This document shows, in pieces, positions 12,584 through 15,019 of a stretch of DNA of 34,354 nucleotides (its first letter is position 1; every line of letters begins with the position of its first letter). The stretch is taken from positions 11,097 through 45,450 of the forward strand of contig JALUAB010000133.1 in NCBI GenBank assembly GCA_027051195.1, read 5' to 3'. Made by a program: the position numbers and the translations under genes. The stretch comes from Hyphomicrobiales bacterium. Its GTDB lineage: Bacteria > Pseudomonadota > Alphaproteobacteria > Rhizobiales > Aestuariivirgaceae. Under the pieces are notes generated by a model. It did no database searches. It saw nothing but the letters and a program-made list of their open reading frames with translations, and had not been told where the DNA came from.

Positions 12584-13852
12584 TCACTTCCTCCGCGGCG
12601 CCACCATGCCCAGACCGAAATCCACCGCATTCTCGCCGAAGCGCCGCCGCAGTGCCTCGCCGGCAAGCTCGGCGCGGGCCTTTTTCGCGGCCCGCTCGTC
12701 CAGGCTTTGCGCCAGCATCTCCGGCGTCATCTCCACCAGATCCGAAATGCCAACCCCGATGAGCCGGCACGGGCCGCCGTCGTGCAGTTTCGCCAGCAGC
12801 CGCCGCGCCGCTGGAAACACGTGCACCGCCAGCGCCACCGGTTCGGAAAGCCGCGTCTGCGTGGTGTGGGTGGAAAAGTCCGCATGGCGCAGTTTCAGCG
12901 TCACCACCCGCCCGGCCAGCCCTTTTTCCAGCGCCCGGCGCATCACCTTCCGGCACAGCCGCCACAGCTCCCGTTCCAGCGCTTCACGCGCGGCGATGTC
13001 CTCTTCGAACGTGTGCTCGGCGGAGATGCTCCTGCGCTCGTGCTCCGGTTGCACCGGCCGTTCATCGATGCCATGCGCGAGATTGAACAGGTGCGCCCCC
13101 AGCCGGCCGAACCTCCGCATCATCCAGCGCGCGTCCCTCTCACGCAGCTGCGCCACCGTCACGATGCCCTCCCGCGCCAGCGCGCGGGCCGCAGCGGGGC
13201 CCACGCCGTGCAACTCCTCCACCCCGAGGCCGCGAAGGAAATCCGCCGCCCCGGCTCTCGTGATCACCGAAAAGCCCCGCGGCTTTTCCAGATCGGAGGC
13301 CATTTTGGCAAGGAACTTGTTGAACGACAGGCCGATGGAGACGGTGATGCCCACTTCCCGCTCGATGCGCCGCGCCAGCCGCGCGCACATCACCGCCGGC
13401 GGCGCGCCGTGCAACGTCTGCGTGCCGGAAAGATCCAGGTAGGCCTCATCGATGGAGGCCATCTCCACCAGCGGCGTGGCCGATTCCAGAATGGCTGCGA
13501 TCCGCGCGCTCTCGCGGCGGTATTTGTCGTGATCCGGACGAATGACTTTCGCCTCCGGGCACAGCTTCAGCGCCCGGGTCATGGGCATGGCCGAGCGCAC
13601 CCCGTAAACCCGTGCGATGTAGCACGCCGCCGCCACCACTCCGCGCCTCCCGCCGCCAACGATCACGGGCTTGTCCATCAGGGCCGGGTCGTCGCGCTTC
13701 TCGATGCTGGCGAAGAAGGCGTCGCAATCCACGTGCGCGATGGCGAGGTCGAACAGCTCTGCCGCCACCACCACCCGCGGCGATCCGCATGCCGGACAGC
13801 GCCGGGCGGGGGAGGGCAGGGGCGCGTCGCAGTCACGGCAGAACCCCGCCAT
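12584..13852 (-). CDS. dinB: DNA polymerase IV (Y family) with N-terminal Cys4 motif
   Basis: IAHVDCDAFFASIEKRDDPALMDKPVIVGGG, SIDEAYLDLSGT, SIGLSFNKFLAKMASDLEKP; N-terminal CRDC-x11-CPAC. Start could instead be 13894. Confidence 0.93.
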   Translation of the reverse strand: MAGFCRDCDAPLPSPARRCPACGSPRVVVAAELFDLAIAHVDCDAFFASIEKRDDPALMDKPVIVGGGRRGVVAAACYIARVYGVRSAMPMTRALKLCPEAKVIRPDHDKYRRESARIAAILESATPLVEMASIDEAYLDLSGTQTLHGAPPAVMCARLARRIEREVGITVSIGLSFNKFLAKMASDLEKPRGFSVITRAGAADFLRGLGVEELHGVGPAAARALAREGIVTVAQLRERDARWMMRRFGRLGAHLFNLAHGIDERPVQPEHERRSISAEHTFEEDIAAREALERELWRLCRKVMRRALEKGLAGRVVTLKLRHADFSTHTTQTRLSEPVALAVHVFPAARRLLAKLHDGGPCRLIGVGISDLVEMTPEMLAQSLDERAAKKARAELAGEALRRRFGENAVDFGLGMVAPRRK

Positions 13853-14036
13853 GCCACGCCAGCGCCCTGCGCCGATGTCCGGTTTCGCCGCCATGCCGGC
13901 ATCACACCTTACCGGCGCCGTTTGCGCAACCCCGGCGGCAGCATCGGTGCCAGGGCTGGTGCTGGAATGGGCGATAAAGTGCAAATAATTGAATTTTTGA
14001 TTTTTAGGATGGGGCGCTGAATTTATTCATGCCTGA

Positions 14037-14104
14037 CCTTGGGCTCAGGGCCCATAAATTGCACCGGACTGACGCCGCGCAATTTATGGGTCCTGAGCCT
14101 GGGG
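14037..14104. repeat. Palindromic element overlapping the 3' end of the ROK gene
   Basis: 26-bp stem: CCTTGGGCTCAGGGCCCATAAATTGC (14037-14062) against GCAATTTATGGGTCCTGAGCCTGGGG (14079-14104), 16-nt loop; the 4 non-Watson-Crick pairs are all G-U when read as + strand RNA. Confidence 0.85.
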
Positions 14105-15019
14105 CCACAACCGCGCCGCGCCGCGCACGCCGGACGCGTCTCCGTGTGCCGGCCGCCGGATGTCCACTTTCGGCGCCGCGGCGAAGATCCACTTCTCCAT
14201 CAGCGCGGGCAGGTCCTCATACAGCGAGTTGATGTTGGAAAGCCCGCCCCCCAGCACGATCACCTCCGGGTCGAAGATGTTCACCACGTGCGCCAGCGCC
14301 CGCGCCAGCCGCTCCGTGTATCGCTGCATGCTGGCCGCGCATTCCTCGTCCCCCTTCCGCGCGCCTTCCGCGATCTCACGTGCGGAAAGCGGCCTGCGCG
14401 TGATACGCAGATGCTCGGTTTCCAGCGCCGGGCCGGAAAGGAACGTCTCGATGCATCCGCGCCGCCCGCACCAGCACACCGGCCCCGGCATTTCGCCGAA
14501 CTTCGGCCAGGGCAGGGGGTTGTGCCCCCATTCGCCGCCGATGGCGTTCGCACCCGTGATCACCTGCCCGCGGAAGATCAGCCCGCCGCCAACGCCGGTG
14601 CCGAGGATGACGCCGAACACGCTCTCCGCCCCCTTCGCCACGCCATCATGAGCCTCGGACAGCGCCAGGCAGTTGGCGTCGTTCTCCATGCGCACTTCCC
14701 GCCCCAGCGCCTCCTCCAGATCCTCGCGGAAGGGCATGTCGTTCAGCCAGGTGGAATTGGCGTTCTGCATGCGCCCCGTCACCGGCGAGACGGAACCCGG
14801 CGTGCCGATGCCCACCGTCGCTGCTTCCGGCGCCACGCCCGCCGCCTTCTCGGCGGCCCGCACCAGCGCCGCGATGGCCTCGATGACCCCGCGATAATCG
14901 TGCCGGGGCGTCGGCATCCGTTCGGAAAACACCACCCGCTCTTCCCGGTCGAAGGCGATGGCGGCAATCTTGGTGCCGCCGAGGTCTATACCGATGCGCA
15001 GTTCCGGCAATTCGCTCAT
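14084..15019 (-). CDS. ROK family sugar kinase
   Basis: IGIDLGGTKIAAIAFD, GIGTPGSV, ILGTGVGGGLI, CWCGRRGCIETFLSGPALE (ROK zinc motif). Confidence 0.93.
   Translation of the reverse strand: MSELPELRIGIDLGGTKIAAIAFDREERVVFSERMPTPRHDYRGVIEAIAALVRAAEKAAGVAPEAATVGIGTPGSVSPVTGRMQNANSTWLNDMPFREDLEEALGREVRMENDANCLALSEAHDGVAKGAESVFGVILGTGVGGGLIFRGQVITGANAIGGEWGHNPLPWPKFGEMPGPVCWCGRRGCIETFLSGPALETEHLRITRRPLSAREIAEGARKGDEECAASMQRYTERLARALAHVVNIFDPEVIVLGGGLSNINSLYEDLPALMEKWIFAAAPKVDIRRPAHGDASGVRGAARLWPQAQDP

Follow-up and report, generated by a model that had tools for sequence, protein, structure and literature searches.

The palindrome at the 3′ end of the ROK-family sugar kinase gene in the window (the whole stretch of 34,354 nucleotides analysed here) is a copy of a lineage-specific MITE, shortened to 58 bp by an internal deletion. 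It was probably mobilized in trans by a transposase of the IS5 family (IS427 type), and is likely to have inserted at the stop codon of the kinase gene, whose TA would since have become CA. As described in the earlier note, the palindrome has 26-bp arms (14037-14062 and 14079-14104) separated by a 16-nt loop. The element proper extends from 14042 to 14099 on the minus strand, the five outermost bases of either arm being host flank that includes a TG/TG target-site duplication (TSD), one copy at 14040..14041 and the other at 14100..14101, where it reads CA on the minus strand and gives the first two bases of a CAG codon. The left terminal inverted repeat (TIR; GGCTCAGGACCCATAAA) lies at 14083..14099 on the minus strand, and the right one (GGCTCAGGGCCCATAAA) at 14042..14058 on the plus strand.

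Compared with the full-length copies of the same genome, the window copy is a join of two segments, nucleotides 1-41 of the left end and a 17-nt right end, with 4 mismatches. A fold-back event, in which the left end template-switched on itself, would fit the alignment equally well (4 mismatches for each model), and both arms indeed read ...ATTGC, as the left end does. Such an origin nevertheless appears rather unlikely: an internal deletion takes just one event of a common kind, which makes it the simpler and preferred model, and other short deletion derivatives are known, of 67 bp (L108), 130 bp (L134/L135) and 144 bp (L018). When a second copy of the short left-left palindrome was sought across 69 genomes of the family, only that of the window was found.

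The repeat is multicopy, with GGCTCAGGNCCCATAAATTGC matching 47 times at up to 3 mismatches in its own genome, and the reversed control not at all. About 27 placements of the family defined by the TIR GGCTCAGGACCCATAAA were recorded in this 2.0-Mb genome, mostly of 219 or 220 bp, together with derivatives of 170, 144 and 58 bp. The family is present in nine of ten congeners, at 161 bp in G007 and G001 and about 232 bp in G004, G009 and G010. Its members display the features of bacterial MITEs: they are short (58-233 bp), carry a 17-bp TIR, occur in tens of copies and lack a transposase. Target-site duplication is indicated by TA/TA flanks in 45 of 70 copies and by empty sites at arsP and dnaJ; CTA/TAG is the commonest flanking context (24 copies), and copies without TA/TA mostly differ on one side only, by a transition. 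Full-length copies are predicted to fold into a long hairpin, and no plasmid match was found for the 220-bp form.

Several observations bear on the structure of the family. The 170-bp forms (L010, L011, L026) lack a nested hairpin of about 50 bp (TCTGGCGCAAAATC...GATTTTGCGCCAG) carried by the 220-bp forms, a difference suggesting that the hairpin is a nested insertion or, alternatively, was precisely lost. Tandem copies with a common CTAG junction occur at L011, L102, L118 and L122, and several adjoin a TIR-like TAGGGTCTGGACTCA. At L022:954-1173 (contig C24 of the same genome), a 220-bp copy and its 2-bp duplication amount to 222 bp, or 74 codons, and one frame appears, by eye, to be open across the consensus; a TPP riboswitch (Rfam RF00059) is located near a MITE copy, at L022:711-841.

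What could have mobilized these elements? An 848-bp IS of G011 has TIRs (GGCTCAGGACCTATTAA/GGCTCAGGACTCATTAA) nearly the same as those of the MITE, cta...tag flanks and two overlapping ORFs, and its transposase matches NF033580 (transpos_IS5_3) above the cut-off as well as PF01609. In G007:C242, the exact TIR GGCTCAGGACCCATAAA is found upstream of an IS5 transposase, at about 90 bp from its start. The MITE thus has its TIRs in common with autonomous ISs (G007:C242 and G011:C235) that reside in relatives and not in its own genome, a fragmented MAG of 264 contigs in which a search for the partner transposase gave no match, so that its MITEs appear to be orphans, unless the IS is missing from the assembly. 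A genome that harbours MITEs but no functional transposase has been reported for Haloquadratum (PMC3119063). The mobilizer is probably an IS5-family (IS427-type) IS, found in the congener G007 and in a related genus. Alphaproteobacterial members of the IS427 group, such as ISPaes/ISPpa, measure 832-865 bp, generate a 2-bp duplication, have two overlapping ORFs with a frameshift and are bordered by imperfect inverted repeats of 13-21 bp (PMC3281130). The G011 element agrees with this description in its length of about 850 bp, its 2-bp TA duplication and its two overlapping frames, whereas the element of the window is a non-autonomous MITE whose transposase was not found in its own genome. Separately, an IS5 transposase fragment is enclosed between MITE-type ends at L109:152-557 (G007:C214), and is a possible IS-to-MITE intermediate.

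The ROK gene (fructokinase-like, 311 aa) extends from 14084 to 15019 on the minus strand, and a dinB-like DNA polymerase IV gene, an ORF judged by eye, lies downstream (12584..13894, minus strand), with the element in the spacer; a dinB-like N terminus also follows ROK in G001, G003, G005 and G010. The final codons announced in the earlier note, CCC CAG GCT CAG GAC CCA TAA, were recovered on the minus strand. Among orthologues of 44-91% identity, most end in RLW followed by no more than a few residues, with some reaching about nine and one longer; the ends are RLWG* in G006 (91% identical) and G004, RLWP* in G002 and G007, and RLWD... or similar in others, and none is PQAQDP. Multiple copies, a family-wide TA duplication and the absence of PQAQDP from orthologues uphold the idea that a mobile palindromic repeat supplies the last codons and the stop of the kinase. 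The accompanying proposal that it replaced the native C terminus did not hold, since the orthologue ends indicate a native end that looks intact, with five residues added. Given these ends, and a Pfam ROK match that stops at residue 307, P306 is probably native (RLWP), Q307 would combine the CA of the TSD with the G of the TIR, and A-Q-D-P-stop would be TIR sequence, the insertion-made part (residues 307-311 and stop; CAG GCT CAG GAC CCA TAA) covering 14084..14101 on the minus strand and closing with the TAA that is the TIR's second stop in this frame. We infer that this five-residue extension is neutral. The ROK site of G006 diverges directly after the stop, and no very close strain offers an empty ROK site. 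An independent element is found at the same gene end in G002, where an IS5-family transposase fragment (G002:C72:16853-17356) lies about 15 bp after ROK.

The scenario favoured here would start with a transposase of the IS5 family (IS427 type) that recognizes TA, with a preference for CTAG, and mobilizes the MITE in trans. When members of the family insert into a TAA or TAG stop codon, the TA is duplicated, and this TA, followed by G as the first base of the TIR, rebuilds a TAG; the fifth codon after it, in frame and within the TIR, is a TAA. At ROK, the MITE would have entered at the kinase's stop codon and the adjacent TA would have changed to CA, turning TAG into CAG (Gln), so that translation would run through A-Q-D-P to the TAA of the TIR. 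The frame of the ROK gene is the same as that of the genes interrupted at their stop codons, (TA)G GCT CAG GAC CCA TAA; a CA in place of the TA would abolish the first stop and leave translation to end at the second.

The window copy is flanked by TG/TG, whereas TA/TA is the family rule (45/70), and this opens another interpretation, namely that the element inserted directly at a CA (TG) not many codons ahead of the native stop in W-P-Q-G-Q-A-TGA, truncating or replacing that end, with no later change from T to C. Both TSD copies read CA on the minus strand, another copy of the same genome (L013) is likewise flanked by CA/CA, and once the element and a single CA are removed the frame stays open as TGG CCC CAA GGT CAG GCA TGA, which would give WPQGQA* and not WP* as the pre-insertion end. 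Against this, deviations from the TA/TA rule are mostly one-sided, and the four closest congeners stop right after W-G or W-P, none having PQGQA. Insertion at a CA is therefore considered unlikely, and the inferred target remains the native stop codon, with TA changed to CA after insertion.

That stop codons are a recurrent site for this family is apparent from 13 of 69 distinct insertions, scored by codon usage, in which a gene stops exactly 1 nt into the element, with TA from the duplication and G as the first TIR base. All 13 genes have Pfam matches, and encode an ArsP permease, argininosuccinate lyase, a DsbD-like protein, a class-III aminotransferase, a TPR protein, TrmD, Dus, FlgEFG, BMFP, GlpX, DnaJ, a 2OG-Fe(II) oxygenase and PdxH, the C-terminal Pfam model of the latter being matched up to the last residue. 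Two empty sites document the event: arsP ends GCC TAG without a MITE in G008 and G004 and GCC TA|G-MITE in the window's genome, and dnaJ ends AGC GAA TAG without a MITE in G005 and G009, while the MITE is present in G004. In the 11 of 13 cases listed, the stop has been restored as TAG or TAA, and the far flank is not TA in three (TG, TG and AA). The second in-frame stop follows within the TIR, as TAG GCT CAG GAC CCA TAA.

The stop-codon share of the MITE insertions (13/69, 19%) exceeds that of non-genic TA (55/1,353, 4.1%; Fisher p ~1e-5) and of non-genic YTAR (7/119, 5.9%; Fisher p ~0.007), p values that are descriptive because elements and background were detected by similar, though not the same, criteria, copies that share a genome are only partly independent of each other, and the comparison was designed after the pattern had been noticed. 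No background CTAG site lies at a stop (0/38). CTAG itself is scarce, with 38 occurrences in 411 kb, and is formed by none of 32 background TAG stops (window and L309-L328). The excess may largely result from target preference combined with selection against insertions within genes. A further reading is that stop codons are a harmless niche in which the family prefers to settle, where TA and the terminal G rebuild TAG in either orientation and the second stop of the TIR serves as a back-up, now used by ROK; this can be put forward only tentatively.

Gene ends are also modified in other ways. Where the MITE is read in other frames, the extensions are longer: an isochorismatase gene gains 18 aa from a copy, its orthologues ending differently, and a HigA-like antitoxin gene (L019:1030-1248, contig C9 of the same genome) apparently gains 53 aa. 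Long ORFs entering the element at L013, L016, L021 and L030 were set aside, the coding signal stopping short of the element.

A different question is whether the palindrome acts at the RNA level. The earlier note had pointed out that all four non-Watson-Crick pairs are G-T on the plus strand and A-C on the minus strand, and had proposed that the element may fold as an antisense or read-through RNA on the plus strand. The pairs (14039/14102, 14040/14101, 14041/14100 and 14050/14091) are as described, and the plus strand does fold better, at -49.6 kcal/mol (z -9.5) versus -42.0 (z -7.2) for the minus strand. However, two of the four pairs belong to the target duplication and a third to host flank, which leaves a single pair within the TIR, so that the advantage comes mainly from the flank, as TG...TG duplications inevitably form T-G and G-T pairs; such a folding energy is, moreover, expected of any TIR element. 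Nor do other copies in the genome reveal a strand bias, with 3 G-T, 1 A-C and 7 other TIR mismatches. An A-C excess in congener copies seems to reflect an inherited difference between the left and right ends, which also appears in the ends of the partner IS. A search of the palindrome for promoter and terminator consensus and for Rfam matches returned nothing. The G-U argument is thus not supported, and a functional antisense or read-through RNA is highly improbable.

Remodelling of gene ends by such elements is already known. Copies of QMITE1/QMITE2 in Coxiella burnetii overlap gene 3′ ends and give C-terminal residues, EnhC gaining 33 aa (PMC5896051), and the MITE reported here likewise supplies C-terminal residues at gene 3′ ends; it is, by description, a different element, and for QMITE no insertion exactly in the stop codon with a rebuilt TAG was noted. 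Similarly, the enterobacterial RU-1, a MITE-like repeat, has fused with the 3′ end of a gene, the native stop being gone and the C terminus extended (ECA3499 amidase; PMC2759123); the repeat at ROK also lengthens a C terminus, but, comparing descriptions, RU-1 is another element and its extension is larger. Rickettsia palindromic elements, likewise from Alphaproteobacteria, are repeats of about 150 bp from which genes acquire codons (as reviewed in PMC10969869), as they do from the present one; they lie in-frame within ORFs, however, whereas the MITE is mostly intergenic or in stop codons. In the open-access literature on insertion into stop codons and on CTAG targets, matched by terms and mostly judged on title and abstract, no description of such stop-codon rebuilding was recognized, which does not establish that none exists.

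Landing in, and rebuilding of, the stop codon is a neat and testable family pattern. Beyond explaining the odd C terminus of the ROK kinase as transposon sequence, it carries a warning for annotation, as terminal residues in this genus can be MITE-derived. The fact that a target duplication and the first base of the element rebuild the stop codon that was hit suggests how dense repeats could spread at low cost in compact 2-Mb genomes.
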